Part shown: in pieces, positions 40,002 to 64,000 of the stretch
Layout of the letters: the number at the start of each line of letters is the position of its first letter
Numbering within the stretch: position 1 is the stretch's first letter
Source: Roseimicrobium gellanilyticum
Lineage (GTDB): Bacteria; Verrucomicrobiota; Verrucomicrobiia; Verrucomicrobiales; Verrucomicrobiaceae
Assembly: GCF_003315205.1 (NCBI RefSeq)
Contig: NZ_QNRR01000007.1
Coordinates: forward strand, 248,001-312,000
Direction of reading: 5' to 3'
Length of the DNA: 64,000 nt
The notes under the pieces: generated by a model
Databases searched by the model: none
What the model was told of the DNA's origin: nothing
Seen by the model: the letters and a program-made list of their open reading frames with translations, nothing else
Made by a program: the position numbers and the translations under genes

Positions 40002-41582
40002 TCACCTCTGCCTGCCCAGAACTTCCTTGAGTGCCTTCTCCAGCTTGGGCCAGTGCACGGGCTTGGTGAGGTGCTGGGAAAAGCCCGCCTTGCGCGAGCG
40101 TTCCACGTCCCGCTCGGTACCGTAGCCGCTCAAGGCAATCCCTTGTGTCGGGCGGATGGCTTTCAGCTTTTCGAGGAGCTCAGTGCCACTGCCATCAGGA
40201 AGGCCGATATCGCTGATGACGCAATCCATGGATTGCTTCTCATACAGACCCACTGCCTCCCGGATGCTTCCAGCGAGATGCACTTGGTACCCTTCGCGGG
40301 ACATGATGCGTCCCAGTACTCGCGCGGTGTCGATGTGGTCCTCCACCAGAAGAAGGTGAATGGAGCCGTGCCCATCGATGTCCTGCGAGGGATTGCTCGT
40401 CGGCGAGGGGGACGTAACAAGGGGCGCCTGCTGCGTGCAATGCAGTGTGACGGTGAAGGCTGCTCCACCTACGGAGGGGTCACTTTCCGCCTGAATGGTC
40501 CCACCATGAGCGTCTACCAGTGCCTTGGCAATGGCGAGGCCCAACCCGAGGCCGCCGAAATGGCGGGTGATCTCCGGGCTGCCCTGCTCGAAGGCGTCGA
40601 AGATTTTGCCAATGAAGGAAGGGTCGATGCCCACACCGCTGTCGCGTATCTCGGCGGCAATTCTGTCACCGGGCAAGTTCCGGGTGGTGATTGTGATTTG
40701 TCCGCCGACTGGAGTGAACTTCACGGCATTCTTCAGCAGGTTCCAGAACACTTGCTGCAATCTTGCAGGATCGGCCTGTACGGCGCAGTGGATGGCTTCA
40801 AGCTGCCACTTCAGAGTAAGCTGTTTCTGTGAGATCTCCTCATGGCAGGTATCCGCCGTGTGGTGCAACAGGCTGTTCAGATCCGTAGGGCGCAGATCCA
40901 CCTCCAGCTTCCCACGAGAAATGCGGGTGAGGTCCAGCAAGTCATCGATGAGACGCGCCTCCAGCTCCACATTCCTCCGGATGATGGCGAGCATGTTGCG
41001 GAGCTGTTCGGGATCCGAATGCTCGACATCGGTCGCGGTCACAGCGGCCAGCACCGGAGTGAGCGGGGTGCGCAGTTCGTGTGAGAGTGCCGCCAGAAAC
41101 TGGTCCTTCCGTGCATTCGCTTCCTGGGTCTCCAGGAAGAGCTGCTCCATCTCCCGCCTCTGCTGCTCCAGCAGGCGCTCCGTGTGTGCCTTGTACATGG
41201 CGTTCTCCACGGCGCGATGCAGCAATTCCGGATTGAGGCGGTCCTTGACCAGATAATCCTGCGCACCCGCCTTCATCACCTGCACGGCGATGGCTTCATT
41301 GCCAGTGCCCGTGAGCATCACCACTGGGAAGCTTCGCGGTCCGCCTGCGGTGATCAGTTCTTGGAGGAACTCAACTCCGTTTCCATCGTGGAGGTGGTAG
41401 TCCAGCAGGATGCAGTCCGGACGCTCGCTCAGCACGATGTCCATGGCACCTTCCACGGAGTTGTGCTCGATGAACTCGTAGTTGTTGCCCGGGGCTTTGG
41501 TCAGATAGCGCCGGCATGTTTCCCGGTCGATGCCATTGTCGTCCAGGATGAGAAGTTTGCGGATGGGGGGAAGTCCGTCCAT
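40002..41582 (-). CDS. Hybrid kinase: receiver, histidine kinase, receiver
   Basis: A 526-residue cytoplasmic protein with a receiver domain first (acceptor D61 in CILLDYHLHDGNG), then a coiled linker, a histidine kinase core (phospho-His168 in LAALSHELRTPL; N box FWNLLKNAVKFTP; G boxes DSGVGID and GLGLGLAIAKALVDAHGG), and a second receiver (acceptor D458 in CVISDIGLPDGSG). It has no membrane span and no sensor domain. It is probably switched by phosphorylation of the first receiver, for example from the bacteriophytochrome encoded two genes upstream. It is the last gene of the light operon and has no DNA-binding output domain. Confidence 0.93.
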   Translation of the reverse strand: MDGLPPIRKLLILDDNGIDRETCRRYLTKAPGNNYEFIEHNSVEGAMDIVLSERPDCILLDYHLHDGNGVEFLQELITAGGPRSFPVVMLTGTGNEAIAVQVMKAGAQDYLVKDRLNPELLHRAVENAMYKAHTERLLEQQRREMEQLFLETQEANARKDQFLAALSHELRTPLTPVLAAVTATDVEHSDPEQLRNMLAIIRRNVELEARLIDDLLDLTRISRGKLEVDLRPTDLNSLLHHTADTCHEEISQKQLTLKWQLEAIHCAVQADPARLQQVFWNLLKNAVKFTPVGGQITITTRNLPGDRIAAEIRDSGVGIDPSFIGKIFDAFEQGSPEITRHFGGLGLGLAIAKALVDAHGGTIQAESDPSVGGAAFTVTLHCTQQAPLVTSPSPTSNPSQDIDGHGSIHLLLVEDHIDTARVLGRIMSREGYQVHLAGSIREAVGLYEKQSMDCVISDIGLPDGSGTELLEKLKAIRPTQGIALSGYGTERDVERSRKAGFSQHLTKPVHWPKLEKALKEVLGRQR

Positions 41583-41594
41583 GAGCGAGATCCT

Positions 41595-42031
41595 TTAGAG
41601 AACAGTGGACTGGCGCCACAGATGGACCATGTGGTCAATCGCCGCGTCGGTGATCGTGTTGTCTGCAGCCTTCGCTCGAAACTCGCTGGCTCCAACCTTG
41701 AGGCAACGCTCCTGCACCGCAGGGTCGTTCACGGCACTCCACACCACGACGGGAATGTCCTTGAATGACTCATCCGACTTCATCCTGACCAGCAGCTCCT
41801 GGCCGTCACCGTCAGGAAGCTTCAGATCCAGCACCAGCAGGGCAGGCATGGGCATGGCAGCAATACCAGCCTTCCAGCGGCCCAGATGATCGTGGACCTC
41901 ATCCACGCCGAGGCAGCGATGCACGGGGGCTTCGATGCTGAGCTTTTTCAGGCGGCGCATCACGGTTTCATAGTCGGCATCTTGATCCTCCACGACGAGG
42001 ATGGGCCGCACGCTGGAGGATGACATGGATT

Positions 42032-42035
<4 letters not shown>
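41595..42035 (-). CDS. Single-domain response regulator
   Basis: A 146-residue receiver-only protein. PILVVEDQDADYE holds the acidic pocket, D70 in LLVLDLKLPDGDG is the acceptor and the conserved Thr/Ser and Lys lie in VVVWSAVND and FRAKAAD. It resembles Rcp1-type regulators that serve bacteriophytochromes. Its ATG overlaps the bphP stop by four bases, so it is almost surely its partner. It lacks an output domain and may pass phosphate to the hybrid kinase downstream. Confidence 0.93.
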
Positions 42036-44247
<2,212 letters not shown>

Positions 44248-44251
<4 letters not shown>

Positions 44252-44838
44252 GCGTGAAGGCCCTCCTTTGCGATCCAGCGCTGCAGGGAGCGAAAGGTGG
44301 CGTTGGCACCGTGGATGATCCTGTCGTGATCGCCGCGCTCTGCATGTCGCTCAAGGGCATTGCAGAATTGCTTCCACATGCTTCCCGTTTCTTCTCCATA
44401 TCCGCGGAAGAATTTGCGCGCACCCTCACTGATCGGCCGGCCCTGGAGCATGGCAGAGATGTGCCGGCCTCCGAGCGTTGAACCCTCCAGCACGTAGAAG
44501 CTGCCGAAGGCGGGGTCGTTCTCCTGCACTACAGGCAGATCCTCGCAGGTGGGCAGGTCGTTTATTTGCTCGATTCCGAGACCAAGGGCCTGCAAGTCCT
44601 GCTTGAGCCAATCGGCCTTGCGTCGCTGGTCGAACTGGATGCCCTGCAATTCCCACCCGTGTCCGTGGGATAAAAGTTCCTCCATGGGTGCGTAGAACCC
44701 ATAAAAGACCTCCAGCATTTTTCGATAGGTGGATTCGAGCTCAAGCGTTCGTGCGATTTGCACTGACTCTTCCAGTTCTCGGTGGGACAGCGCCGTTTCC
44801 TGGCGAAGGCGTGGGAGGAGGGGAGGTCGATCTGGCAC
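44248..44838 (-). CDS. bphO: Heme oxygenase for the phytochrome chromophore
   Basis: A 196-residue biliverdin-producing heme oxygenase. His19 in ETALSHRELEE is the proximal heme ligand position and SFYVLEGSTLGGRHIS is the distal-helix glycine-rich motif. Length fits BphO-type enzymes. Its stop overlaps the start of bphP by four bases, as in many phytochrome operons, which supports the pairing of chromophore and photoreceptor synthesis. It is the first gene of the four-gene light operon; the 110 bases upstream, before sdhB, hold the likely promoter. Confidence 0.94.
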
Positions 44839-44948
44839 GGGAAGGAATATTTATGCCATGAGAATCGGATGAACATGGCTGTCCGCAGAGAAAATCGCAA
44901 TGCAATTTCCCGACGGCGATCTTTCCTTCGTTGAGCAGGCGCAAGCGA

Positions 44949-45749
44949 TCAGCCTGCGCCGTCGCCGCCGCCCTTGCCGGCAGGGGCGATGACTGCCTCG
45001 TGCACGGTGGCGAGTGCGTAGTCCCGATTCATTTTGGCGATCCAGCGCACGCTAATGTCCTTCGGGCAGGCTCCTTCGCACTCGTAGTGATTGGAGCAAT
45101 TGCCGAACCCTGCGGCATCCATGGAGCGGACCATGCCGAGCACACGGCGGTGTTTCTCCGGCTGGCCCTGGGGAAGCATGTTGAGCTGACCAGCCTTGGC
45201 GGAGGTGAAAAGCATGGCGCTGGCATTCGGGCAGGCGGCCACGCAGGCACCACAGCCGATGCACTCTGCGGCATCCATGGAGGCATCTGCGGCTTCCTTG
45301 GAGATGGGCAGCGCATTGGCATCCTGTACGGAGCCGGTGCGTACGCTGATGAAACCGCCGGCAATTTGGATCTTGTCGAACGAAGTGCGATCCACTGCGA
45401 GGTCCTTGATGACCGGGAAGGCCACGGCGCGGAAGGGCTCGATCCAGATGGTGTCCCCATCATGGAACTTCCGCATGTGAAGCTGGCAGGTGGTGGTAGA
45501 CCGCTCAGGGCCGTGAGCGCGTCCGTTAATCACCATGGAGCACATGCCGCAGATGCCTTCGCGGCAGTCGTGGTCAAAGGCAATGGGGTCTCCGCCCGAG
45601 GTGATGATGCGCTGGTTCACGATGTCCATCATCTCCAGGAAGGAAGCGGACTCGGGGATGTCCCTGGCTTCGATGTCCTGGAAGTAGCCTTTGGCATTGG
45701 CGCTTGCCTGGCGCCAGACTTTCAGGTGGAGGTGCAATGAGCGGGCCAT
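44949..45749 (-). CDS. sdhB: Succinate dehydrogenase iron-sulfur subunit
   Basis: A 266-residue electron-transfer subunit. The plant-ferredoxin-like N-terminal domain has the [2Fe-2S] motif [15 protein letters not shown] plus the distant Cys in STTTCQLH. The C-terminal domain has the [4Fe-4S] motif [14 protein letters not shown] and the [3Fe-4S]/[4Fe-4S] motifs [14 protein letters not shown]. It passes electrons from SdhA to the membrane heme subunit and quinone. It ends the sdhCAB operon, 57 bases after sdhA. Confidence 0.97.
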
Positions 45750-45806
45750 GGAAGGTGGTGGGTGCGGTTCGGAAAGATTGCGCGGAAGGGTGGGGACGTT
45801 GGCAGA

Positions 45807-47807
45807 CTAGACGTAGCTGCGCACGGCGAGGTGGATCTCTTCGTACTTGAGCTCCTCTTTGTGCAGGGTGGGCTTGGAGACATCTCCGGTGTATTCCCAG
45901 GCGGCGACGTAGGCGAACTTCTCGTCATTGCGCAAGGCCTCACCAGCCTGGCCACGCTTCGCCTTCTCGTCCTCAGCCGTGTACTGGTACTCGCTGCGGA
46001 AGTGACCACCGCAGCTCTCTTCGCGCTGCTGGGCATCGAGGCACATGAGCTCGCCGAACTCGAGGAAGTCCGCGAGACGACCGGCCTTTTCGAGTTCCTG
46101 ATTGAAGGACTCGCCTGCGCCGGGGACGTAGAGATTTTTCCAGAACTCTTCGCGAAGGCCGGGCAGCTTTTGGAGGGCTTCCTGCAGACCTTCACGGGTG
46201 CGGGCCATGCCGCACTTGTTCCACATGAGCAAGCCCAACTCGCGGTGGAAGTCATCCACTGTGCGCTTGCCTTTGATGTCGAGAAACTTCTTGGTGCGCG
46301 CGGCGACGGCAGCCTCCGCTTCCTTGAATGCAGGATGCGCCGTGGTGACGGAGCCGGGCTTCTGGCCTGCCATGTAGGCGGGGAGGGTGTAGGGGATGAC
46401 GAAGTAGCCATCTGCCAGCCCCTGCATGAGGGCGCTGGCGCCAAGACGGTTCGCGCCGTGGTCGCTGAAGTTTGCCTCGCCCAGCACGTGCAGGCCGGGG
46501 AGATTGCTCATCAGATTGTAGTCCACCCAGAGACCGCCCATGGTGTAGTGCACGGCGGGGTAGATGCGCATGGGCTGCTCATAACCGCTCTCGCCGGTGA
46601 TGCGCTCATACATGTCGAAGAGGTTGCCGTATTTCTCACGCACGACGGCCTTGCCGAGCTTCTCAAGCTCCTCGGTGGGCAGGTTCTTGCCACCTGCTTT
46701 GTCCTTGCCGTAACGCTTGATGGCGTCTGCGAAATCAAGGTACACGCCGAGTCCGCCGGGGCCTACACCGCGGCCTTCGTCACACACTTCTTTCGCACTG
46801 CGGCTGGAGATGTCACGAGGGGCGAGGTTGCCGTAGGTGGGGTATTTGCGCTCCAGATAGTAGTCGCGATCCTCATCCGGAATCTGGTGCGGCGGTTTCT
46901 GGCAGTCTTCCTTCTTCTTGGGCACCCAGACGCGACCGTCATTGCGCAGCGACTCGGACATGAGCGTGAGCTTGCTCTGGTAGTCGCCGCTGACCGGGAT
47001 ACAGGTGGGGTGAATCTGCGTGTAGCAGGGATTCGCGAAGAAAGCGCCCTTCTTGTGCGCGCGCCAGGTGGCGGTCACGTTGCAGCCCTTGGCATTGGTG
47101 GAGAGGTAGAAGACGTTTCCGTAGCCGCCCGTCGCGAGGATGACGGCATCGCCAGCGTGGCTGCTGACTTCACCGGTCACGAGGTCGCGCACCACAATGC
47201 CCTTGGCATGGCCGTCCACGACCACGAGTTCGAGCATTTCGGCGCGGTTGTACATCTGCACATTGCCACGGGCGATTTCCTTGTTCAGCGCGGAGTAGGC
47301 GCCGAGCAGGAGCTGCTGTCCGGTTTGACCACGGGCGTAGAAGGTACGGCTTACGAGGGCACCACCGAAGGAGCGGTTTGCCAGCAGGCCGCCATATTCG
47401 CGGGCCAGCGGCACGCCCTGTGCCACGCACTGGTCGATGATGTTCGCGCTGACTTCGGCGAGGCGGTAGACATTGGCTTCACGCGCGCGGAAGTCGCCAC
47501 CCTTGATGGTGTCGTAGAAGAGGCGGTAAACGGAGTCGCCGTCGTTCTGGTAGTTCTTCGCGGCGTTGATGCCCCCCTGGGCGGCGATGCTATGGGCGCG
47601 GCGGGGGCTGTCCTGGAAGCAGAAGCACTTCACCTTGTACCCCAGCTCGGAGAGGGTCGCTGCGGCGGAGGCGCCGGCGAGGCCGCTGCCCACCACGAGG
47701 ACGGTGAACTTGCGTTTGTTCGCAGGATTGATGAGCTTGGCTTCCTGCTTGTAGCGGGTCCACTTCTGGGCGAGCGGCCCGGCTGGAATTTTAGCGTCGA
47801 GTGCCAT
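45807..47807 (-). CDS. sdhA: Succinate dehydrogenase flavoprotein subunit
   Basis: A 666-residue FAD-binding subunit that oxidises succinate to fumarate. The dinucleotide-binding region is [20 protein letters not shown], the flavin-attachment region [13 protein letters not shown] carries the usual residues, and [15 protein letters not shown] and [20 protein letters not shown] follow. [20 protein letters not shown] is the C-terminal FAD contact. It is longer than the E. coli enzyme (588), as in the three-subunit type seen in Bacteroidota and relatives. It lies between sdhC and sdhB. Confidence 0.97.
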
Positions 47808-47834
47808 GGGAAGAGGTGAGGGGAAAGAGGTTCG

Positions 47835-48536
47835 TTATTTCACCCAGCCGAGCATGACCGAGATGGGGATGGAACAGTTTCCGATGAGAATGACGGTGGC
47901 GAAGACCAGGGCGATGGTCTTGTAGACGGGAATGGTGCGCTCATTGGAGATGCCCACCGTCTGGAACATGCTCTGCACTCCGTGGCTCAGGTGGGACCAG
48001 AGCAGGACCATGGCAATGATGTAGAAAAGGGAGGCCGGCCACCAGGAGAAGCCCGCAATCACCATGCGGTACACGTCATGCACAGTCTCGCCGTGGAGGA
48101 CGGTCTTGTAGGTATCGTAGTCATTGCCCGCACGAACCGTGAAGTGCAGGAGGTGGTAGACGATGAAGGCCAGCAGCGTAAGCCCGCTCAGGATCATGAT
48201 GCGCGCGGAATTCGTCGTCTTGATGGTTTTGTGAACGGCGTACCGGTCGGAGCGTGCAGCCCGGTTTTCTTTGGTCACCTGGATGGTCAGCACCACGTGC
48301 ACCACCACGCAGACCAGCAGGCCGATGCGGGCAATCCAGATGCCTGCGCCATGCAGCAACGTCTGCAACGTATGCCCGTATTCATTGATGGCGTCCGGAC
48401 CTGCATACACCAGCAGGTTTCCAATCATGTGTCCGAGAACGAACACCACGAGCACCATGCCCGTGAGAGCGACCAGGATTTTCTTTCCTAAGGAAGAGCC
48501 GAGAAACGAAAAAAAAGACGGGAACAGGGAGCTCAT
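47835..48536 (-). CDS. sdhC: Succinate dehydrogenase cytochrome b subunit
   Basis: A 233-residue single membrane subunit with five spans and several His residues for two hemes (VFVLGHMIGNLLVY, VCVVVHVVLTIQV, FIVYHLLHFTVR and LLWSHLSHGVQSMF). This is the Bacillus/Bacteroidota-like b558 form, which usually works with menaquinone. I take the ATG at 48536; upstream in-frame starts (48551, 48689) add polar residues with no role. Downstream are sdhA and sdhB in order, each within 60 bases. Confidence 0.93.
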   Translation of the reverse strand: MSSLFPSFFSFLGSSLGKKILVALTGMVLVVFVLGHMIGNLLVYAGPDAINEYGHTLQTLLHGAGIWIARIGLLVCVVVHVVLTIQVTKENRAARSDRYAVHKTIKTTNSARIMILSGLTLLAFIVYHLLHFTVRAGNDYDTYKTVLHGETVHDVYRMVIAGFSWWPASLFYIIAMVLLWSHLSHGVQSMFQTVGISNERTIPVYKTIALVFATVILIGNCSIPISVMLGWVK

Positions 48537-48816
48537 GGGTGAGGATTGCATATTGGCGAACCGTCGCGCCTTGGCAAGCCTTGTCGCAGGAGATATGCCT
48601 TCATGAGACCCAGTCTCCTTTCTTTTGTGCGAAAGGCTGACCGTGGGCCCGTCCTGAGTGAGCTTGCAGGGCGCGCATGATGGCTTCATTTTTCATACGC
48701 CCGCCGGAGGCGTCCAGAGGCAGTTTGTAGGACGAAAGTCGCATGTCGTCCCGGGGTTGTCGCACATGCCCTTGGCGTATCTGGGAGACCGGATTACACT
48801 TTTGACGTTTCACCCC

Positions 48817-52164: not shown

Positions 52165-55100
52165 ATGCTTGATCGACTCTCCTACGTTCTGCGGCTGAGA
52201 GACCCTCTTCGCCGTCATCATCCTTACCGCATTTCCTGGCGCGCAGTGATTGGCCTTGGCAAGTTGGCCTTGCTTGCCAGCATGATGTCAGCAGCGGCAT
52301 CTGCTCAAACCAGCGGGGTGTGGAAAGTCACAGGCAACAACCTGAACTGGAGTGATCCTGCCAACTGGCAAAGCTCTGTGGCTTCAGGCATCGGCGTCAC
52401 GGCGGACTTCAGCCAGGTGAATATTCCCGGGGCGCGCAACGTCGTGCTGGATGGGCCATTCACAGTGGGCACATTAATCTTTGGAGATTCGGATGATACG
52501 CATGCGTGGACCCTGAATGGAGCCTCGACGCTGACTTTGGAGACTGCCGCCGGGATCCCTGAGATCCGGGTGGTGAACCGCACATTGACGGTGAATGCCA
52601 CGCTTGGCGGAATTCAGGGTTTCAGAAAGACGGGTGCGGGCACACTCGCGCTGGCCAATGCGGGCATCACACTTACGGGCGGCATTGCGCTGAATGAAGG
52701 GGTGCTGAGTTTCACGAATGGGGCGCTTGGCACGAACGCCGTGACGTTTGGCGGAAACGCCACCCTCACATGGGGTGCAAGTACCAATCAGGACATCTCC
52801 AGTCAGATTGTGCTTGGAGATGGTTTTACGGCCACGCTCAACACGAGCACCAACAATGTCACGCTCGCATCGGTGCTCCAGACAGGAGTCTCCGGCAATG
52901 CGGCGGTCACCAAAACCGGTGGAGGTACATTGACCCTCACTGCGGCGAATACCTGGACGGGCCTGACTCGCGTGAATGTGGGACGCCTGGTGCTCGCTGG
53001 AGGCAACAACCGCCTCGCGGCGACGTCCGGGGTTACCATTGGCCAGGCGGGCAATAGCGGTGTCCTGCAATTGGGCGATGCGAGCGGTGCGGTGAATCAA
53101 ACAGTCATCTCGCTTGCTTCGGCCGGCACTGGGACAGCAAATGCAGTGGTGGGGGGCAATGCTGCAGTCTCTACCCTGACCGTGAACGTCGCTGGCCCTG
53201 CCAGCAACTCATTCACCTTTGCAGGTCTGCTCGGAGGCGCCGGAGCGAATGAAAACAATCTGGCTCTGACCAAGGCCGGTGCTGGTACACTGGTCATCAA
53301 CAATGCCGCGAACACCTTCACGGGTGGCGTGAACATTCAGGGAGGCACCCTCGAGTTTGGTCTGGGAGCTCTGGCTGCGAATACCGTGACCTTCACGGGC
53401 AATGGCACCCTGACGTGGAACGGGACCAACACACAGGACGTGTCCTCACAGATCCGTCTCAACAACGGAGTCACAGCCTCCATCAGCGCCAACGGGAATA
53501 CCGTGACTCTTGCCACCGCATTTCAGGTGGGAACCAACAACAGCGTGACCAAGTCTGGTGGTGGCACCTTCATCATCACGGCGGCGAACACCTGGACCAA
53601 CGGTACTCGCATCAACAACGGTCGGATGATTCTGACCGGAGGTGACAACCGCCTTTCCGACCTTGGTGGCATCTCACTGGGGAATGGTGCGAACAGCGGT
53701 GTCCTGCAACTGGGCGATGCCAGCGGTGCAAGCAATCAGACCATCACGAATCTGACCATCATCGGCAACGGCACCGCCAATGCGATTGTGGGTGGCAATT
53801 CAAACATCTCGACGCTGACTCTCAATACGGATGGCATTGTGGCCTATGCCGGACTGCTGGGGGGGATCGGGGCGAATGAAAATCAGCTGGCGCTCGTGAA
53901 GGGTGGCACTGGTATCTTTGTTCTTAACGGAGAGAATACTTTCGCAGGAGATGTCACCATCAATGGTGGTTCCCTTCTCATTTCCAAGTCGGCGGCCCTC
54001 GGTTTGGGTAACAAGACGGTGCACATCCACGCGGCTGCCAATGCTCCCAGCCTGCAACTCGACGGTACCAACGGGGACATCGTCCTGGCCTCGGGCATTC
54101 GGTACGTGACGAGCAATGATGACGCGACCAATGCGGCCATCGTGAGCAAGGCAGGCAACAATGTCATCTCCGGCAGCATCGCGCCCACGACGGGCGGAGC
54201 TGGCACCGGAGCGACGCGCATCAAGGTGGAAACGGGCACGCTTACATTGGAAGGCGACATTGCGCCTGAACTGGACGTGGCGGCAGCATCAACGGTGATC
54301 CTTGATGGCGATGGCAATGGGACGGTGAGTGGCCTGATTGCAAATCACGGGGCACACACGCTGGGAATCCGCAAAGAAGGTGCTGGTACGTGGAGCTTGC
54401 TTGCCGCGAATACCTACAGCGGCCCCACTGACGTGGCTGGCGGACGTTTGAATCTCACCACGGCTCAGAGCGGCGGGGGAGCGGTGACCGTACGAGATGG
54501 TGCGACTCTGGGATTGAAGCTGGCTGCATCCGGACAAACGCTGGCCACGTCAGAGCTGACGCTCGGGGAATTGAGTGGCAGCACGCTCTCTTTTGATCTG
54601 GGTGCTTTTGCAAATCCCTCCATAGCCCTGATCACGGCACCAACGTTCATCACGCATGGACTGAATGTTCTCCATGTCTCCGGAACAGGACTCAACGTGG
54701 GGCAGTTTGCGCTCATTGATTACACGGGCTCCATTGGCGGAGATGGATTTTCGGCACTATCCTTGGGGATTCTCCCGGCGCGTGTGACGGCGAATCTGTT
54801 GAATGACACCACCAACACACAGGTGCTGCTGAACATCACCGCGTTTGACGTTCCCAAATGGATCGGTGGTGTGAACAATCAGTGGGACATTGATGACGGC
54901 ACCGGTACAGGCACGCTGAACTGGCGTGAAGTGAATAGCGGCCTGGCCACGCGCTACCTGCAGGGCAGTGGTGGCACCGACAGCGTGCTCTTTGATGACA
55001 CGGTTGGTGTGCCACTGACCGTGGATCTCACAACCACACTCACGCCTGCGACGGTGACCGTGAACACCTCCATCAATGCGTTTGTATTTGAAGGCGCGGG

Positions 55101-57963
55101 CAAGCTGAGTGGTTCCACCCAGCTGATCAAGAATGGAAGCTCCAAGCTGATCTTCAAGGAACTCGGGCTCAATGACTATATTGGTGCTACCACCATCAAC
55201 GGAGGCACCCTTCAGATTGGTGACGGCGTCACCTCCTTCGCTGGTGGCCTTGGCACTGGCGATGTGTCCATCAACAACAGCGCCACGTTGATTCTTAAAC
55301 GGCCTGACGACATCACGGTGGCGAATGTGATCAGCGGCAGCGCCGCCAGTACCATCATCCAGGAGGGGCCTGGCAGTGTGACACTCTCTGGAAACAATGC
55401 GTCGTTTGAGGGAAGCATTTCGGTGGCCGGTGGGACTTTGGTCGTGGGTGGTGCCAATGCTCTGGGCTCGCTCACGGGTGGCACGAGTATCGCCACTGGT
55501 GCGACTCTGGATGTTGGTGGGTTCTCACTGGCGGAGAATATCTCGAACGCAGGTGGTACTTTGAGAAACACAGTGGGAACTACCGGGATTCTCAGTGGAA
55601 ATATCTCACTGGATGGCGGTGGCACTGTCCATGTGGATGACTCCACCGTGCGCCTGACGATCACCACGGCGATCACAGGGACTGGAGGCCTGAAGAAGAG
55701 CGGTGCTGGAACACTGGTCCTGACGGGCAACAACACCTACGCGGGCGGCACCACGATCTCGGGCGGGATATTGCAGATTGGCGCTACTGGAGGAGCGGGT
55801 ACGTCAGGGGCGCTTCCTGCAGGTGACATTGATTTCGCCGCGGATGAGTTTTCCTCGGCCACGCTCACCATCCTGCGTTCGGATGCGATCACGATTGCCA
55901 ACAACATCACGAGCAGTGGCCTGGGCACGAATGCGATCATCATCGGGGTGAATGGAGCGGCATCTCCCAGCGGCACGGTGACGTTCTCTGGCAACAACAG
56001 CTTCACGGGTAATGTGACGATAAACGGCGGAACGCTGAAAATTACCAACAGCAATGCGCTAGGCTCGGGAACAAAGACGGTGCGTGTGGCCTCGAATGCG
56101 CTGCCCAGTCTGGTGCTGGATGGGTCAGCGGGGGACATCACCCTCGCGGCTGGCATCAACTATCAGGTCAGCAGCGATGGCTCCGGCTCCACGGCAGGTG
56201 GTATTGTAAGCATCGCGGGAAATAACACCGTCAATGGCGTGGTCTCCATGATCAATGGTGGCGGTGGCAATGCGCGGATCTCTGTGCAGGCAGGAAGTAC
56301 CCTGACTCTGGCCGGGGGTGTGGATGCCAATGGCGCCACGGGCAACCGCACCCTGCTGATTGGTGGGGCGGGCACGGGCCACATCACCGGAGTGATTTCT
56401 GATACAGGTGCCAACGTCGTCACCGTGACCAAGGATGGCGACGGTACCTGGTCCTTGGAAAACCATAATACCTTCACCGGCGTGGTGAACGTGAATGCGG
56501 GCACATTGCAGTTCAACAATGCTGCTGCCACAGGCGCCGCGCAGTCCTTGGGGCAGGGGACGGGTGTGGTGAATATCGGTACGGCTACCACGACGGGTAC
56601 GCTGGAATACATCGGCCTGGTGGACGCACTGTTGGGACGGGGCATCACGGTCGGCGGCGTGGCGGGTGGCGTGGTGAAGAACAGCAGCAACAGCGGTGTG
56701 CTGACCCTGGCCGGTACAGTGACGAAAAACGGACGTCCACTCACCCTGACCGGTGGCCGCATCAACGTCACGGGACTGGTCACGGGTGCCACACTTTCTG
56801 ATCTGATAGTGGACGCCTCGGTGGTGACCCTGAGCAACACGGCTAACAACTACAACGGCACCACGCATGTGCGCGGCGGCGGCACCTTGAAGAACGGCGC
56901 TTCCGAAGTGCTGACGGACTCCACCGTGGTGCAACTGGGTGAAGCCACCACCAACACCTCCGGCACCTATGACTTGAATGGCTTCCATGAGACCATCTCC
57001 GGGCTTACGGGAGTGGGCACGGGAGCGAGAGTCGTTACCAACAACGGCGCCACGGACAGCACGCTCACGGTCTCAGGTGCCAGCACGTTCAATGGTGTGA
57101 TACAAGATGGTGCCACGGCCAAGGTGAACCTGGCCAAATCTACCGGAGGAGTCTTCACCCTCACGGGTGACAACACCTACACAGGCACGACGACGATCTC
57201 TGGAGGCGCCCTTCAGGTAGGCGCAGGTGGCACTGGTGCTTCGCAGGTGGAGGCCATTACGCTGGGCACCACAGGGAGCGGGCAAACGACTGTAAGTGGG
57301 ACTGGCATTCTCGCGGGCACAGGCTTCGTGAGAGGTGGATTGACCATTGCCGGTGGCAGTGTCCATGCAGGTGACACGATCGCCACGGCCGGTGATCAAT
57401 TGGGAACGTTGTGGATTGGAGGCAACGTGACATTCGAATCGGGCAGTCTGGTCCTGCAGATCTCCTCATCCGATCTCAATGTCGCTGCGCTCGCGGACTC
57501 GAACTCCGCCGGCTACAGTACGGCCCTGCTGGGGCTCACCACGGAGTCCGCAGCGGCTCTGGCCAGTACCATTTCCATCGGCGCGCACGACCATCTGGAA
57601 ATCTCGGGTACAATCGACTGGGCAGCTACGGGGACACGCACGGTCTCCATTGAATTGGCCAGCACGACCGACATTCTGGCTGGCGATGTCTTCAATCTGC
57701 TCGACTGGAGTGCAGCACTGAACGCGGGCACCTTCAACGCAGGAGGCGCCCTTCGTGCTGGTGGTGAGGTGGGAGCGGACCTGCTTCTTCCCACGCTCGC
57801 CAATGGCTTGGGGTGGGATACTTCACTCTTCGCTGAGCACGGCATTCTTGTCGTCACGCAGCTTTCCGTAGTGCCGGAGCCGTCGCGCATGATGCTCATG
57901 TTGTTCGCCTTCGGTGCTGTCATTCTACGTCGCAAGAGGGGTGGTCGCGCCACCGCATTTTGA
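52165..57963 (+). CDS. Giant autotransporter-type beta-strand repeat protein with PEP-CTERM tail
   Basis: A 1932-residue exported protein. A signal region (LALLASMMSAAASAQ) follows a long basic N-terminal part. The body is made of many repeats of the autotransporter-associated type: TKTGGGTLTLTAANTWTG, TKAGAGTLVINNAANTFTGG, KSGAGTLVLTGNNTYAGGTT and TGDNTYTGTTTISGGALQVG are examples, each a pair of beta strands ending in an N-x-Y/W-T/S-G turn. This should build a long beta-helix rod. No autotransporter barrel is present. The C terminus has VPEPSRMMLMLFAFGAVILR followed by basic residues: the PEP-CTERM signal, so an exosortase would cut it. It is Gly/Thr/Ala/Asn-rich with few charged residues. 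Probably a surface or matrix protein. Confidence 0.95.
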   Translation: MLDRLSYVLRLRDPLRRHHPYRISWRAVIGLGKLALLASMMSAAASAQTSGVWKVTGNNLNWSDPANWQSSVASGIGVTADFSQVNIPGARNVVLDGPFTVGTLIFGDSDDTHAWTLNGASTLTLETAAGIPEIRVVNRTLTVNATLGGIQGFRKTGAGTLALANAGITLTGGIALNEGVLSFTNGALGTNAVTFGGNATLTWGASTNQDISSQIVLGDGFTATLNTSTNNVTLASVLQTGVSGNAAVTKTGGGTLTLTAANTWTGLTRVNVGRLVLAGGNNRLAATSGVTIGQAGNSGVLQLGDASGAVNQTVISLASAGTGTANAVVGGNAAVSTLTVNVAGPASNSFTFAGLLGGAGANENNLALTKAGAGTLVINNAANTFTGGVNIQGGTLEFGLGALAANTVTFTGNGTLTWNGTNTQDVSSQIRLNNGVTASISANGNTVTLATAFQVGTNNSVTKSGGGTFIITAANTWTNGTRINNGRMILTGGDNRLSDLGGISLGNGANSGVLQLGDASGASNQTITNLTIIGNGTANAIVGGNSNISTLTLNTDGIVAYAGLLGGIGANENQLALVKGGTGIFVLNGENTFAGDVTINGGSLLISKSAALGLGNKTVHIHAAANAPSLQLDGTNGDIVLASGIRYVTSNDDATNAAIVSKAGNNVISGSIAPTTGGAGTGATRIKVETGTLTLEGDIAPELDVAAASTVILDGDGNGTVSGLIANHGAHTLGIRKEGAGTWSLLAANTYSGPTDVAGGRLNLTTAQSGGGAVTVRDGATLGLKLAASGQTLATSELTLGELSGSTLSFDLGAFANPSIALITAPTFITHGLNVLHVSGTGLNVGQFALIDYTGSIGGDGFSALSLGILPARVTANLLNDTTNTQVLLNITAFDVPKWIGGVNNQWDIDDGTGTGTLNWREVNSGLATRYLQGSGGTDSVLFDDTVGVPLTVDLTTTLTPATVTVNTSINAFVFEGAGKLSGSTQLIKNGSSKLIFKELGLNDYIGATTINGGTLQIGDGVTSFAGGLGTGDVSINNSATLILKRPDDITVANVISGSAASTIIQEGPGSVTLSGNNASFEGSISVAGGTLVVGGANALGSLTGGTSIATGATLDVGGFSLAENISNAGGTLRNTVGTTGILSGNISLDGGGTVHVDDSTVRLTITTAITGTGGLKKSGAGTLVLTGNNTYAGGTTISGGILQIGATGGAGTSGALPAGDIDFAADEFSSATLTILRSDAITIANNITSSGLGTNAIIIGVNGAASPSGTVTFSGNNSFTGNVTINGGTLKITNSNALGSGTKTVRVASNALPSLVLDGSAGDITLAAGINYQVSSDGSGSTAGGIVSIAGNNTVNGVVSMINGGGGNARISVQAGSTLTLAGGVDANGATGNRTLLIGGAGTGHITGVISDTGANVVTVTKDGDGTWSLENHNTFTGVVNVNAGTLQFNNAAATGAAQSLGQGTGVVNIGTATTTGTLEYIGLVDALLGRGITVGGVAGGVVKNSSNSGVLTLAGTVTKNGRPLTLTGGRINVTGLVTGATLSDLIVDASVVTLSNTANNYNGTTHVRGGGTLKNGASEVLTDSTVVQLGEATTNTSGTYDLNGFHETISGLTGVGTGARVVTNNGATDSTLTVSGASTFNGVIQDGATAKVNLAKSTGGVFTLTGDNTYTGTTTISGGALQVGAGGTGASQVEAITLGTTGSGQTTVSGTGILAGTGFVRGGLTIAGGSVHAGDTIATAGDQLGTLWIGGNVTFESGSLVLQISSSDLNVAALADSNSAGYSTALLGLTTESAAALASTISIGAHDHLEISGTIDWAATGTRTVSIELASTTDILAGDVFNLLDWSAALNAGTFNAGGALRAGGEVGADLLLPTLANGLGWDTSLFAEHGILVVTQLSVVPEPSRMMLMLFAFGAVILRRKRGGRATAF

Positions 57964-58036
57964 TGTCGCATTGAGCCAATCCCTTCGTTCTACAGGACAA
58001 CGCCCCTTCGCCCTCCAGTCCACTTCACCCTTCCCC

Positions 58037-59470
58037 ATGAAATCCACATTCCTCATCGCCGCCTTTGCGGCTGCTACAGCAGGCTTGCTGTTGCCTGCCA
58101 CGGCTTCTGCAGAATCCAAGAAGCCCAATGTTCTCGTTATCCTCGCTGATGATCTCGGCTACGGGGAGACCAGCATCCAGGGCAATCCACAAATCCCCAC
58201 ACCGCACATCGATAGCATCGGCAAGAGCGGTGTCCGGTTTACGAGTGGCTATGTGAGTGGTCCGTATTGCAGCCCTACAAGGGCTGGACTTTTCACCGGT
58301 CGGTATCAGCAGCGCTTCGGCCATGAATTCAATCCCGGTCCTGCACAGACAGCAGGCCAGGCGGTGGGCCTTCCTGTGGAGGAGAAGACCATCGGTGACC
58401 GCTTCAAGGAGGCTGGCTATACCACGGGCTGGTTTGGCAAATCCCACCTTGGTTATGAGCCGCAGTTCCATCCGCTGAAGCGCGGATTCGATGAGTTCTA
58501 CGGGTTCCTTGGTGGCGCGCACGACTATCTGGATGCGAAAGCTGATGGGAAGAATCCCATTCTCAAGGGCACGGAACAGGTGGATTCAGTAGAGTACACC
58601 ACCGAGTCGTTCGCGAAGGAGGCAGTGTCGTTCATCGACAAGAACAAGAAGAAGCCCTGGTTCGTGTACCTTCCCTTCAACGCGGTGCATGGTCCGCTGC
58701 AAGCCACGGAGAAGTATCTGGCCCGTTTCGCGAACATCGAAGATCAGAAGCGCCGCACCTTCGCCGCGCAGCTTTCCGCGATGGATGATGCCATCGGCAC
58801 TGTGCTGGAAAAGATCCGGGCCAATGGGCAGGAGGAAAACACGCTGATCTTCTTCTTCGCTGACAATGGTGGGCCCACCCGTCAGACCACCTCGCAGAAT
58901 GGACCGCTGCGCGGCTTCAAGGCACAGACTTGGGAGGGAGGCATTCGCGTTGCCTGGCTGGCGCAGTGGAAGGGGCGCATTCCCGCAGGACAGGTGGACG
59001 ATCGTCCGGTCATCCAGCTCGACATCCTGCCAACGGCTCTCGCGGCTGCTGGGGTCGAAGCCAAGCCCGAGTGGAAGCTCGATGGCGTGAACCTTCTTCC
59101 TTACATCACGGGTGAAAAGAAAGAAGCTCCACACGAGGCGCTCTACTGGCGCTTCGGCCCGCAGATTGCCATTCGCAAGGGGGCATGGAAGCTGGTGAAA
59201 GGAACCAATCCCGAATCCCAGCCACTGGAACGCCGTGGTGCTGCATCCGTCGAAGGGGCGGAACTTTACAACCTGGAAAAGGACATCGGCGAAACGAACA
59301 ATCTCGCAGCCAGCGAACCTGAAAAACTGAAGGAGCTCGCTGCAGCTTGGGAGAGGTGGAACTCGGAACTGGTGGCACCCAAGTGGATTCCCGGGAACGC
59401 GGGCAAGAAGCAAGGTGCTGGCGGCGGCAAGAAGCGCCCGGCGGCCCAGACCCAAGCGCAGTCGAACTAG
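58037..59470 (+). CDS. Secreted sulfatase (formylglycine, Cys type)
   Basis: A 477-residue arylsulfatase-family enzyme. The ATG at 58037 starts the signal peptide MKSTFLIAAFAAATAGLLLP; the open frame from 57914 overlaps the previous gene. PNVLVILADDLGYGETSIQG gives the metal-binding Asp pair. Cys78 in CSPTRAGLFTGRY would be turned to formylglycine by a maturation enzyme not seen here. Further ligands are in KSHLGYEPQFHP and FFADNGGPTR. The closing LYNLEKDIGETNNLA is usual. It probably desulfates polysaccharides outside the cytoplasm. The released sulfate may feed the sulfate-binding protein encoded next. Confidence 0.95.
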   Translation: MKSTFLIAAFAAATAGLLLPATASAESKKPNVLVILADDLGYGETSIQGNPQIPTPHIDSIGKSGVRFTSGYVSGPYCSPTRAGLFTGRYQQRFGHEFNPGPAQTAGQAVGLPVEEKTIGDRFKEAGYTTGWFGKSHLGYEPQFHPLKRGFDEFYGFLGGAHDYLDAKADGKNPILKGTEQVDSVEYTTESFAKEAVSFIDKNKKKPWFVYLPFNAVHGPLQATEKYLARFANIEDQKRRTFAAQLSAMDDAIGTVLEKIRANGQEENTLIFFFADNGGPTRQTTSQNGPLRGFKAQTWEGGIRVAWLAQWKGRIPAGQVDDRPVIQLDILPTALAAAGVEAKPEWKLDGVNLLPYITGEKKEAPHEALYWRFGPQIAIRKGAWKLVKGTNPESQPLERRGAASVEGAELYNLEKDIGETNNLAASEPEKLKELAAAWERWNSELVAPKWIPGNAGKKQGAGGGKKRPAAQTQAQSN

Positions 59471-59514
59471 ACCTTCTTCGATTCATCCGCAATCATCTCA
59501 AGCGAACCGACCGG

Positions 59515-59589
59515 ACTACCGGAGGGCAATCAGAATCCATGGCGGGAGTACCACACACGTGGACAGGTCCGCCATCTCCCTCCGGTAGT
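59515..59589 (+). ncRNA. Structured leader RNA candidate before the sulfate-binding protein gene
   Basis: A 12-base outer stem ACTACCGGAGGG (59515-59526) pairs with CCCTCCGGTAGT (59578-59589). Inside, ATGGCGG (59539-59545) pairs with CCGCCAT (59569-59575), and CCAC/GTGG (59551-59554, 59559-59562) closes a four-base loop. A 12-base bulge lies on the 5' side. The outer stem ends five bases before the ATG at 59594. GGAGGG in its left arm may be a ribosome site made unavailable by pairing, or the whole hairpin followed by TTTTC may be a weak terminator. No known riboswitch family was recognised. Confidence 0.5.
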
Positions 59590-59593
59590 TTTC

Positions 59594-60637
59594 ATGATCA
59601 CACTCACTCTTTCTCACTTGCGCGGGCGGCAGCACCGCACACGCCGCTGGCTGCTGGGCGCAGCGGTTTCATCCCTCCTTGTTCCACTGCCACTGCATGC
59701 GGCTGAGCAGAAGCTGCTCAACGTGTCCTATGATGTGACACGCGAGTTCTACAAGGACTACAACGACGCCTTCGCGAAGCATTGGAAGATCAAGACTGGC
59801 AACGATGTCCTCGTGGACCAATCCCATGGCGGCTCCTCGAAGCAAGCCCGTGCGGTGCTTGATGGATTGAGTGCTGATGTGGTCACCTTCAATCAAAGTA
59901 CGGATATTGATATCCTTGTGCCCAGTGGGCTGGTGGCGAAAGACTGGACTGCAAAGTATCCCAACAACGCCGCGCCCTACACCTCCACGATTCTGTTCCT
60001 AGTGCGGAAAGGGAACCCCAAAGGCATCAAGGACTGGAGTGACCTGGTGAAGGATGGAGTGCAAGTCATCATCCCGAATCCGAAGACGTCCGGCAATGGA
60101 CGCTACAGCTACATTGGCGCATGGGCCTATGCATTGAAGTCGGATGGTGGGAATGAAGACAAGGCCAAAGAGTTCGTTGGCAAGCTCTTCAAGAACGTGC
60201 CCGTGCTGGATACCGGTGGCCGTGGTGCTACCACCACCTTCGCACAGAATGGCATCGGCGATGTGTTGCTCACCTTCGAAAACGAGGTGCATCTCACGCT
60301 CAAGGAACTCGGGGCGGACAAGTTCGATATTGTGGTGCCCTCACTCAGCATCCTGGCGGACGCACCTGTGGCTGTGGTGGAGACAGTGGCGAAGAAGAAT
60401 GGCAACGAGGATCTGGCCAAGGAGTACCTCTCCTATCTCTACAGCGATGAGGGACAGGAGCTGGCAGCGAAGCATTACTACCGCCCTCGCAATGCTGACA
60501 TTCTCAAGAAACACGGAGACCGTTTCCCCGAAGTGAAACTCGTGACGATTGATGAAATCGCCGGCGGTTGGGCCAATGCCCTGAAGGTGCACTTCAAAGA
60601 CGGCGGTGTCTTCGACCAGATTTACCAGCGCAAATAG
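59594..60637 (+). CDS. Sulfate/thiosulfate ABC transporter substrate-binding protein
   Basis: A 347-residue exported solute-binding protein of the Sbp/CysP type. The signal peptide has a long basic start and LLGAAVSSLLVPLPLHAAEQ. The mature part starts LLNVSYDVTREFYKDYN and carries DQSHGGSSKQARAVLDGL (sulfate-binding Ser/Gly loop) and VVTFNQSTDIDIL, and later PNPKTSGNGRYSYIGAWAYA. It should bind sulfate in the periplasm for an ABC transporter, but no permease or ATPase gene is in the window, so it works with a distant transporter. It follows the sulfatase and its structured leader. Confidence 0.93.
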   Translation: MITLTLSHLRGRQHRTRRWLLGAAVSSLLVPLPLHAAEQKLLNVSYDVTREFYKDYNDAFAKHWKIKTGNDVLVDQSHGGSSKQARAVLDGLSADVVTFNQSTDIDILVPSGLVAKDWTAKYPNNAAPYTSTILFLVRKGNPKGIKDWSDLVKDGVQVIIPNPKTSGNGRYSYIGAWAYALKSDGGNEDKAKEFVGKLFKNVPVLDTGGRGATTTFAQNGIGDVLLTFENEVHLTLKELGADKFDIVVPSLSILADAPVAVVETVAKKNGNEDLAKEYLSYLYSDEGQELAAKHYYRPRNADILKKHGDRFPEVKLVTIDEIAGGWANALKVHFKDGGVFDQIYQRK

Positions 60638-60668
60638 CAGTAGTGTGTGAGTGAATGAGTGCGGCGTA

Positions 60669-60712
60669 GGGAGGTCTGTCACTGCTGGTAGTGGCAGGCC
60701 TCCCAATTTTTT
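60669..60712 (+). terminator. Rho-independent terminator
   Basis: GGGAGGTCTGTCACT (60669-60683) pairs with AGTGGCAGGCCTCCC (60690-60704), with two G-U pairs, around a six-base loop, and is followed by TTTTTT at 60707-60712. It ends the sulfate-binding protein transcript before convergent cysK. Confidence 0.88.
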
Positions 60713-60725
60713 CTGGTGCCACAGT

Positions 60726-61724
60726 TTACGCGAGGATGGATTCGATCGCGCGATTGGGATCCAGGCCATTCTCCGCCAGCCAGGCGTGATTGAAGAGTTT
60801 GGACTGGTACTTGTGTCCAGAGTCGCAGAGGATGGTGACAATCGTCTGACCGGGGCCGCGCTCTTTCGCAAGCCGCACCGCGCCACCCACATTGATGCCA
60901 GAGGAGAGACCCACGAAGATGCCTTCCTCACGCAGGAGCTGGTTCACGATGGTCAGGGCAGTCTGGTCATCGATGCGATACGCAGCATCAACTGCAGCCG
61001 CTTCCACGTTCTTGGTCACCCGGCCTTGTCCGATGCCTTCGGCGATGGAGTCACCGTCGTCGGTGTCTGTATTGCCTTGGGTGAACCAGGACCACATGGC
61101 CGCACCATAAGGGTCCGCGCATACGGAGAGCACTCCAGGTTTCTTCTCCTTCAGATATTGCGTCGTGCCCGCCAAGGTTCCGCCCGTGCCTACGGAAGCA
61201 ACGAAGGCATCGACGGTGCCTTCTGTCTGCTGCCAAATCTCCGGACCTGTGGTCACGTAGTGAGCTTGGCGATTCGCCGTATTGTCGAACTGGTTGGCCC
61301 AGAACCAGTCGTTTTCTTCCGCGAGCCGGCGTGCAATGTGATTGTAATTTCCCGGGTCCTTGTAGGGCTTTGCGGGCACGGGCCGTACTTCAGCACCGAG
61401 CGTGCGCAGTAGCAGTATCTTCTCCGGTGCCTGGGTCTCGGGAATGACGATGACACTCTTGTGTCCTCGTGCCGCGCCGATGACGGTGAGGCCGATCCCG
61501 GTATTCCCCGCAGTGCCTTCCACGATGGTCTGGCCTGGCTTCAGCAGTCCCTTTTCCTCGGCATCGGTGATGATGCCCCACGCTGCGCGGTCTTTCACGG
61601 AACCACCGGGATTCATGTATTCCGCCTTGCCGAGAATCTCACAGCCCGTCAGTTCGGATAGCTTGTTCAGGCGGATGAGGGGTGTGTTTCCAATGTGGCC
61701 GTCGACTCCGCGATAGGTGGGCAT
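60726..61724 (-). CDS. cysK: Cysteine synthase A
   Basis: A 332-residue PLP enzyme that makes cysteine from O-acetylserine and sulfide. The PLP Lys lies in EYMNPGGSVKDRAAWG, the Asn in TAGNTGIG, and the glycine-rich phosphate loop in VGTGGTLAGTTQ. LFNHAWLAENGL is near the end. Length is normal. It is the last gene of a minus-strand cysteine block, about 22 bases after cysE, whose product supplies its substrate and in other bacteria forms a complex with it. Confidence 0.95.
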   Translation of the reverse strand: MPTYRGVDGHIGNTPLIRLNKLSELTGCEILGKAEYMNPGGSVKDRAAWGIITDAEEKGLLKPGQTIVEGTAGNTGIGLTVIGAARGHKSVIVIPETQAPEKILLLRTLGAEVRPVPAKPYKDPGNYNHIARRLAEENDWFWANQFDNTANRQAHYVTTGPEIWQQTEGTVDAFVASVGTGGTLAGTTQYLKEKKPGVLSVCADPYGAAMWSWFTQGNTDTDDGDSIAEGIGQGRVTKNVEAAAVDAAYRIDDQTALTIVNQLLREEGIFVGLSSGINVGGAVRLAKERGPGQTIVTILCDSGHKYQSKLFNHAWLAENGLDPNRAIESILA

Positions 61725-61746
61725 GCAGGTCTTGAGGTGGGATGCT

Positions 61747-62736
61747 TCAAATGGAGAATTCCGGGGCGGCCTTTACGCGCTTTTGGGTCTTGTCGAGGAT
61801 AGTGAGATTTTTCTCCTCGTAAATGACGAGTGAGTTGGGTGGCACACTGTGCATGAGGAAGACATTGGCCCCGATGGTGGAGTTTGCGCCGAGCACGGTC
61901 TCTCCACCCAGGATGGTTGAGTTCGGATAGATGGTGACACTATCCTCCACGTTCGGATGGCGCTTCTGTCCCTTGATGGCCTGGCCTGTTTCTGTCTTGG
62001 CGATGCTGCGAGCACCGAGGGTCACGCCATGATAGATCTTCACGTTGTTGCCAATGCGGCAGGTCTCGCCAATCACCACGCCCGTGCCGTGATCGATGAA
62101 GAAGTGTGTCCCGATGCTGGCACCGGGATGGATGTCGATTCCCGTACGAGAGTGAGCCCACTCCGTCATCATGCGAGGAATGACAGGGGCGCCCGCCTTG
62201 TGCAGCAGGTGCGCGCAACGCTGGATTGCGATGGCTTCGATGCAGGGATACGAGAGAATGATTTCTTCGCGGCTGACCGCGGAGGGATCGCCATCATAGG
62301 CGCACTCCACATCTGTGAGCAGCAACTCACGAACCCCTGGAAGCGTCTGGCAGAACTTGCGGAGGATGGGAGGGGTTTTGCCAGTGGGCTTTTTGGGGTC
62401 ACCAATGCGCACCGCCTTGCGCACCTGGTCCTCAAGCCGCAGCATCACACGCGAGAAGCGCTGGCTGGTCACTTCTACCAGCAACCCGTGGTGCAGCGCA
62501 TCCTCATCGTGGAAGCCGGGGAAGAGGATCTGCAGAAGTTCCTCGCAGATCTGGCCCACGGCGCCCTTGGAGGGCATGTTGTGGGAATCGCTATTGTTCA
62601 GACCGCCGACATTCTCATAGGAGTCGAGCAGTGCCGGAACGTATTGTCCATAGGGGAGGGCTTCCCAGGGAGCGGCCACATCTTCTTCAAGACTGCGGCC
62701 ACTGATTCGTTCCGTTTGTTTGGGAGACGCACTCAC
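61747..62736 (-). CDS. cysE: Serine O-acetyltransferase
   Basis: A 329-residue enzyme that acetylates serine with acetyl-CoA. The C-terminal half is a left-handed beta-helix with hexapeptides (GIDIHPGASIGTHFFIDHGT, GVVIGETCRIGNNVKIYHGV). The N-terminal half has the EpsC-like LLDSYENVGGLNNSDSHNMP. The open frame runs up to 62940 but overlaps the upstream rhodanese gene; no ATG exists before codon 122. I take GTG at 62736, with GTG 62754 or 62805 as alternatives; none has a clear ribosome site. It lies between rhodanese and cysK. Confidence 0.9.
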   Translation of the reverse strand: MSASPKQTERISGRSLEEDVAAPWEALPYGQYVPALLDSYENVGGLNNSDSHNMPSKGAVGQICEELLQILFPGFHDEDALHHGLLVEVTSQRFSRVMLRLEDQVRKAVRIGDPKKPTGKTPPILRKFCQTLPGVRELLLTDVECAYDGDPSAVSREEIILSYPCIEAIAIQRCAHLLHKAGAPVIPRMMTEWAHSRTGIDIHPGASIGTHFFIDHGTGVVIGETCRIGNNVKIYHGVTLGARSIAKTETGQAIKGQKRHPNVEDSVTIYPNSTILGGETVLGANSTIGANVFLMHSVPPNSLVIYEEKNLTILDKTQKRVKAAPEFSI

Positions 62737-63439: not shown

Positions 63440-64000
63440 TCAGTTCCGGGGCAGGCGCTTCAGGACATCTACGAGGGTATCCACTTCGTCGCGAGTGTTG
63501 TAGAAGGCCAGCGAGGGGCGCACGCTGCCCTCGACGCCGAACTTGCGCTGCGCGGGCTGGGCGCAGTGATGTCCCGCGCGCACCGCGATGCCGTGCTTGT
63601 CCAGGTGCCTTGCGATGTCGACATTGGGGATGCCGGGGATTACAAAGGAAAGCACGCTGGCTTTGTTGGCGGCTGTACCGATGGGCCGGATTCCGGGAAT
63701 GGTGGCAAGCGACTCGGTGGCGTATTCCAGCAACGCATGTTCATACGCGGCGATGGCGGGCATGCCGATGGACATGAGGTATTCCACCGCTGCACCCAGA
63801 CCCACCACACCGGCAATGTCCGGCGTGCCGGCCTCGAACTTTTCCGGAGGTTCGTTGTAGACCGTCTTCGCAAAGGTCACGTCCTTGATCATATGTCCAC
63901 CGCCCTGCCACGGAGGCATTCCGCTCAGGAGCGAGCTTTTGCCGTAGAGCACTCCGATGCCCGTGGGTCCGAAGATTTTGTGACCTGACAGCGTGTAGAA
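63440..64000 (-). CDS. sufS: Cysteine desulfurase (SufS/CsdA type), C-terminal part
   Basis: The gene runs out of the window; the last 187 codons before the stop are present, starting within FYTLSGHKIFGPTG, which includes the PLP-binding Lys. LYGKSSLLSGMPPWQGGG, EAGTPDIAGVVGLGAA and the active-site Cys in AVRAGHHCAQPA follow. This is the type II (SufS/CsdA) form that makes persulfide for Fe-S clusters. The N-terminal half is outside. It is upstream of the rhodanese, cysE and cysK genes on the minus strand. Confidence 0.95.
   Translation of the reverse strand, partial: FYTLSGHKIFGPTGIGVLYGKSSLLSGMPPWQGGGHMIKDVTFAKTVYNEPPEKFEAGTPDIAGVVGLGAAVEYLMSIGMPAIAAYEHALLEYATESLATIPGIRPIGTAANKASVLSFVIPGIPNVDIARHLDKHGIAVRAGHHCAQPAQRKFGVEGSVRPSLAFYNTRDEVDTLVDVLKRLPRN

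Follow-up and report, generated by a model that had tools for sequence, protein, structure and literature searches.

The closest described systems come from Escherichia coli, in which stable hairpins that have no terminator-type U-tract mark boundaries of differential mRNA decay, as set out in the excerpt of PMC5927463 on which we draw. Two arrangements in this excerpt serve as references, the 5'-protective hairpin between papB and papA and the 3'-protective structure between malE and malF, and RNWUU is given there as the E. coli RNase E motif. Here we present an analysis of a hairpin in a window of 64,000 nucleotides from Roseimicrobium gellanilyticum (Verrucomicrobiota), the window being the whole stretch of DNA analysed, to which all bare coordinates refer. 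To our knowledge, post-transcriptional control in this phylum has been little studied, and the titles and abstract openings of open-licence PMC papers yield nothing on such an element beside sulfate-binding protein or sulfatase genes, Verrucomicrobia included. The window's own genome is denoted G000, and G061 is the only other genome of the genus compared.

Structure, stability and conservation of the hairpin

The hairpin occupies the 123-nt gap between two co-directional genes on the + strand, a sulfatase gene directly upstream (58037-59470; Pfam PF00884, E = 3.3e-62) and an sbp gene for the substrate-binding protein of a sulfate ABC transporter (59594-60637; TIGR00971, 453.5 bits with a cut-off of 155.5). 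It is built of three nested stems, all on the + strand and all identical in G061: an outer stem of 12/12 Watson-Crick pairs (59515-59526 with 59578-59589), an inner stem of 7/7 pairs (59539-59545 with 59569-59575) and an apical stem of 4/4 pairs (59551-59554 with 59559-59562) that closes the loop ACAC (CCAC-ACAC-GTGG, 59551-59562). The outer arms are separated by 51 nt. The perfect 12-base outer, 7-base inner and 4-base terminal stems of the preliminary description are all present in the sequence, while two of its details need correction. Four bases rather than five separate the stem from the start codon (TTTC, 59590-59593, with the sbp ATG at 59594), and what was taken for a 12-base one-sided bulge proves to be a 12/2 internal loop, with 59576-59577 unpaired on the 3' side. 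Ahead of the outer stem lies a 37-bp leader part (59478-59514, +), which by pairwise alignment begins the 51-nt run identical in both species (59478-59528); weak or no pairing is predicted for it, as it is unpaired in the 170-nt centroid of the window and has some weak pairs in the fold of G061. An RNWUU-type motif lies at the hairpin base in both species (GT-TTT, 59588-59592, +; GT-ATT in G061), with its first two bases inside the stem. The sole change between stem and start codon preserves this motif, which may be a cleavage site of RNase E type but is short and could easily occur by chance.

Folding confirms that the hairpin is a real RNA-type structure, more stable than expected by chance. 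Over 87 nt it folds at -42.1 kcal/mol with z = -5.85 and 0 of 200 shuffles equally stable, and z becomes -2.96 (1/200 shuffles) in a 170-nt context. The homologous leader of G061 has z = -4.44 over 100 nt and -3.29 over 173 nt, with 0/200 shuffles in both cases. In a comparison of 98 sbp upstream regions (90 nt) that span many phyla, the most stable folds are those of the two genus members; 104 loci were entered, namely 24 of the 30 loci of the family search reported below and 80 others, with starts chosen by a simple rule, and six were dropped where the start was not found or the upstream DNA was too short. In addition, the sbp leader is the most stable of 51 upstream folds of 90 nt from its own genome that end no more than 8 nt from an early ATG, drawn from 64 crude gene calls in 124 kb (G000:C7:248001-372000).

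The two species are 108/118 identical over the columns of alignment A5, and at 46/46 of the stem bases. All nine differences in the hairpin, two of them indels, fall in unpaired columns (P = 1.0e-4 if equal mutability is assumed), although A5 was fitted to the G000 structure, which favours agreement in the stems. Folded alone, G061 again gives the 12-bp outer stem, with 6 + 3 inner pairs and an apical stem of 5 bp. The fourfold sites of sbp are identical at 88 of 168 positions (52%) and codon position 3 at 61%. Since the stem bases are all kept, the changes are all unpaired and the fourfold sites have diverged to this degree, the three helices look preserved by selection. Since they are kept in the sister species and stand in a sulfur-assimilation locus, the hairpin is probably a cis-acting structured element, in accordance with the cis-acting RNA first proposed. 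The compensatory changes that the same proposal called for do not appear: there is no covariation because none of the 23 pairs varies, and two such close genomes could hardly show any. On the whole, conservation of the leader is not extreme: across 15 kb of synteny, 20.5% of 117-column windows equal or exceed its identity, the 51-nt run ranks fourth in length, and the regions before the sulfatase gene and after sbp are conserved as well. The apical 16 nt are also identical in both species, and a comparison of 59515-59589 with locus L009 shows that two indels in unpaired parts offset each other, so that the outer arms keep their 51-nt spacing.

Gene neighbourhood and distribution

The sulfatase protein has a 92% identical counterpart at the same place in G061, and the terminator-like hairpin with six T that follows sbp (60669-60704, +) is also present there. 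Facing this pair, the - strand carries cysK (502.3 bits against a cut-off of 387), a cysE-like gene (149.5 bits, under the cut-off of 210.65), a rhodanese gene of the same sulfur locus, and a 170-residue C-terminal fragment of a cysteine desulfurase (63440-63952). This fragment best matches the family of cargo proteins of family 2A encapsulins, at 293.9 bits where 800 is the cut-off for the whole protein, and a family 2A encapsulin shell gene lies just past the window (L148:1076-1996, -; 473.3 bits, cut-off 380). SrpI belongs to encapsulin family 2A. In the excerpt of PMC8049743 considered here, SrpI and its cysteine desulfurase cargo are tied to sulfur starvation. Encapsulin gene and desulfurase fragment thus stand beside rhodanese, cysE-like and cysK genes, convergent with the sulfatase-sbp pair, in a compact sulfur locus.

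Several further features of the neighbourhood may be recorded. The genome has an RNase E/G gene (PF10150, E = 2.9e-99). A scan for sigma-70-like promoters finds none in 57900-62000, where 1.4 are expected by chance, other promoter types lying outside the scan. Each genome of the genus has a second sbp gene (L033, G000:C3:236768-237700; L032 in G061), with a protein about 60% identical to the first; by eye, the upstream DNA of these second genes has no such hairpin. Upstream of the sulfatase gene, 52165-57963 (+) encodes a protein of 1932 residues in which 11 stretches match the passenger-associated-transport repeat (PF12951); its C-terminal VPEPS...RRKRGG tail is similar to a PEP-CTERM signal. 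In the 80-kb G061 stretch the counterpart of 41002-48746 is inverted and bases 1-41001 have no counterpart, pointing to rearrangement between the species.

Each genus member has one copy of the hairpin, by covariance model and also by pattern, and that of G061 sits at the same sulfatase-sbp position as that of the window. BLASTN against the own genome gives one full copy, the six further rows being only 15-30 bases long. A REP or another mobile or scattered repeat is ruled out by this single copy per genome, so that the worry, raised at the outset, of a repeat found at random places does not apply. Among 68 genomes of the family, covariance model R1 has matches at E <= 1 in seven, namely G000, G061 and five at E 0.44-0.98 that were presumed to be noise. 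Model R2 finds G000 and G061 among 386 order-level genomes (2/386, E <= 0.1), and G000 among 384 class-level genomes (1/384, E <= 0.05), where G061 is absent, perhaps because it was not sampled. In these samples of 386 and 384 genomes R2 thus detects no homologue beyond the genus, although diverged relatives could be missed, because the Infernal filters were strict and R2 was built from two close sequences. BLASTN has matches at E <= 0.1 in 18 of 96 genomes of relatives, those outside the genus being 17-35 bases long; the best of them (G035, L040), the one examined, looks by eye like coding DNA.

The sbp protein itself is matched in 24 of the 68 family genomes, at 30 loci, and among the 20 of these whose upstream DNA was inspected the hairpin precedes sbp only in G000 and G061. 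The neighbouring genus, g11, has its sbp orthologues (in G064, G065 and G067) at a different location, without the hairpin and downstream of an ABC ATPase gene. In G064 that gene is of CysA type (sulfate ABC ATPase family TIGR00968, 351.3 bits vs 342.75); in G065 and G067 it was judged by eye. Sulfatase orthologues at E <= 1e-120 are found in G064 and G065, each followed by its own terminator-like site, and none at this threshold in G066 or G067; the 4.4-kb sulfatase loci of G064 and G065 contain no sbp. With sulfatase and sbp apart and the hairpin missing in these genomes, the element therefore accompanies the sulfatase-sbp pairing. Searched against the 4227 Rfam families, the whole window has 0 matches at the gathering score, in agreement with the early remark that no known riboswitch could be matched. 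At E <= 10 there is none on the hairpin strand, the best being an antisense Magnesium-II match of 18.7 bits (threshold 40), and the SAM riboswitch RF00162 is absent from the own genome at E <= 0.001.

Possible roles of the hairpin

Of the 64 crude gene calls, 10 have an SD-like motif ahead of an early ATG (9/64 at the first ATG; G000:C7:248001-372000); over 500 draws each the mean is 10.7 for shuffled upstream DNA (8.7 at the first ATG) and 18.6 inside genes (15.0). Against the shuffled mean, SD-like motifs are therefore not enriched before starts in this stretch. A one-draw control (21/64) had hinted at avoidance of Shine-Dalgarno sequences, but the 500 draws and the shuffled-upstream control show only non-enrichment. 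The excerpt of PMC10783764 used here names Akkermansia muciniphila and a second verrucomicrobial genome as SD-scarce. The outer stem was initially said to hide the only GGAGG nearby; the motif does lie within the outer 5' arm (59521-59525), while the hiding of an sbp Shine-Dalgarno sequence does not hold up, with GGAGG 68 nt ahead of the ATG instead of the 5-10 nt of an SD-sequestering stem.

The reading that we prefer, tentatively and with a probability of about 0.4, is that of an intercistronic hairpin in a sulfatase-sbp operon, which governs the processing and the lifetime of both message parts. It is consistent with a stable hairpin in the 123 nt between two co-directional genes, with the terminator-like site after sbp in both genomes, and with a U-run that is not conserved (four T in the window, TATT in G061). 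The empty sigma-70-like promoter scan, the invariant stems with all changes unpaired, the retention of RNWUU in both species, the RNase E/G gene and the tie of the element to the sulfatase-sbp pairing likewise speak for it. Against it stand the four T after the stem in the window copy, an overall conservation of the leader that is not extreme, and a comparison of only two sequences with no compensatory change. Sulfatase and sbp would be carried on one shared transcript, a cut would fall in single-stranded RNA beside the hairpin, and the stem would then shield one of the fragments. If the cut fell at the RNWUU at the hairpin base, the sulfatase mRNA would gain a 3' exonuclease block as in malE-malF, and sbp would be left with a four-base, near-leaderless 5' end, which would fit a genome without SD enrichment before starts. 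If it fell upstream of the hairpin, the 5' end of the sbp mRNA would be shielded as in papB-papA; this version lacks the cleavage-motif feature, because the conserved upstream block has no RNWUU. Either site would uncouple the amounts of sulfatase and sulfate-binding protein. A bolder form, in which, when sulfur is limiting, cleavage at the hairpin base releases the sbp message from a repressed, structured state as a near-leaderless mRNA and the element is a genus-specific riboregulator of the sulfate-scavenging locus, seems to us quite improbable.

Among the alternatives, control of translation is doubtful but has a modest chance. The hairpin would then restrict how readily ribosomes reach the sbp start, and it would be opened by a protein, a small RNA or a ribosome working upstream. 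The outer 3' arm stops four bases short of the ATG, and opening -10..+15 takes 13.8 kcal/mol in G000 (12.4 in G061); there is also an upstream ATG at 59539 with GGAGGG 12 nt ahead, whose frame overlaps the sbp start out of frame in both species. However, opening -18..+15 costs 15.5 kcal/mol (17.4 in G061; median 11.3), and equal or higher costs are met in 17/64 genes at the first ATG, sbp included, and in 12/64 at the cheapest early ATG, so that sbp is no outlier in ribosome access. The start codon itself is free (-3..+15, 1.9 in G000 and 0.7 in G061), starts here show no enrichment of SD-like motifs, and the peptide of the upstream frame is not conserved and ends at different points in the two species. 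A leader peptide from 59539 was accordingly rejected, its frame being open in both species with changes that mostly alter amino acids; likewise rejected was a longer sbp that would begin further upstream in the same frame, a frame that is open in both species, with changes that alter amino acids and with no ATG, GTG or TTG in the window copy. That the hairpin is instead an attenuator or terminator of the sulfatase gene is unlikely, because the TTTT after the GC-rich stem reads TATT in G061. The position does agree with that of the terminator-like site 3' of the sulfatase in two orthologues of the neighbouring genus, yet 51 nt separate the outer arms, the folds of the window and G061 leaders contain no competing antiterminator helix, and the site after sbp keeps its six T in both genomes, which together with the broken T-run speaks against the unusual attenuator once considered. 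The terminator scan does not list the hairpin, but with its loops of 3-8 only it would miss it anyway. On the - strand a terminator hairpin is rejected, with no T-run on that side.

The inverted repeats might also be protein sites in DNA, forming an operator or promoter region for sbp with the conserved 37 bp before the stem as core promoter. The identical block 59478-59514 would be of about core-promoter length, and the arm spacing survives the two indels; this reading is nevertheless improbable. The promoter scan described above is empty for the sigma-70-like type that it covers, and the three nested dyads, with slightly offset centres, would suit an RNA hairpin better. No operator regulon is seen by half-site enrichment in either genome: the outer half-site with <=1 mismatch occurs at 35 sites in G000 vs 133 for the reversed control, and at 26 vs 130 in G061, own arms counted, and neither genome has another paired CCGGAGGG...CCCTCCGG with 40-60 nt between. 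A genus-restricted metabolite riboswitch sensing sulfate, cysteine, O-acetylserine or SAM is very improbable, although sulfur genes lie all round (sulfatase, sbp, cysK, cysE-like, rhodanese, family 2A encapsulin and the desulfurase fragment matching its cargo) and the apical 16 nt and the 51-nt run on the 5' side are invariant. It lacks an Rfam match at the gathering score, the best permissive one being antisense, as well as a homologue outside the genus in the sampled genomes, it has a single copy per genome, and its changes hit the unpaired bases where a ligand pocket is expected. A new riboswitch would display a conserved unpaired core and covarying helices in distant species, while here 9/9 changes are unpaired and 0/23 pairs covary in two sequences. 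On these grounds, the sensing of sulfur status first suggested for the hairpin is not supported. A small RNA freed from between the two genes, pairing through the 5' block and stabilised at its end by the hairpin, is hardly to be expected; the conserved and weakly paired 5' block ahead of a stable hairpin would suit it, but no sigma-70-like promoter was found and the U-run is short and not conserved.

Comparison with described systems

A hairpin that looks selected and stands at a start codon, in a stretch without SD enrichment, offers a testable case of how genomes of this sort adjust gene dosage inside an operon. The hairpin also marks a compact sulfate-scavenging locus of sulfatase, sulfate-binding protein, cysteine synthesis and encapsulin. 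Should it be no more than a stability hairpin, this is ordinary biology.

Compared with the riboswitches of Rfam, the hairpin shares the leader position before a nutrient-uptake gene, and differs in having no match, in its narrow distribution, and in that its loops vary rather than its helices. The structure between malE and malF is a REP, whereas the hairpin here is no REP repeat because it is single-copy. As far as the excerpt of PMC5927463 describes these systems, malE-malF is otherwise alike in being a stable intercistronic hairpin with no conserved U-run, by which the upstream mRNA would be shielded; the protected gene here would be that of an enzyme, with the binding protein downstream. 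In papB-papA of E. coli, within the same excerpt, cleavage belongs to the described system, while here it is putative; moreover the conserved block upstream has no RNWUU, and just four bases lie between the hairpin and the start codon. The two are alike in a stable hairpin that lies between co-directional genes just before the downstream one, in a terminator-like site at the far end, and in the RNase E/G gene that this genome has.
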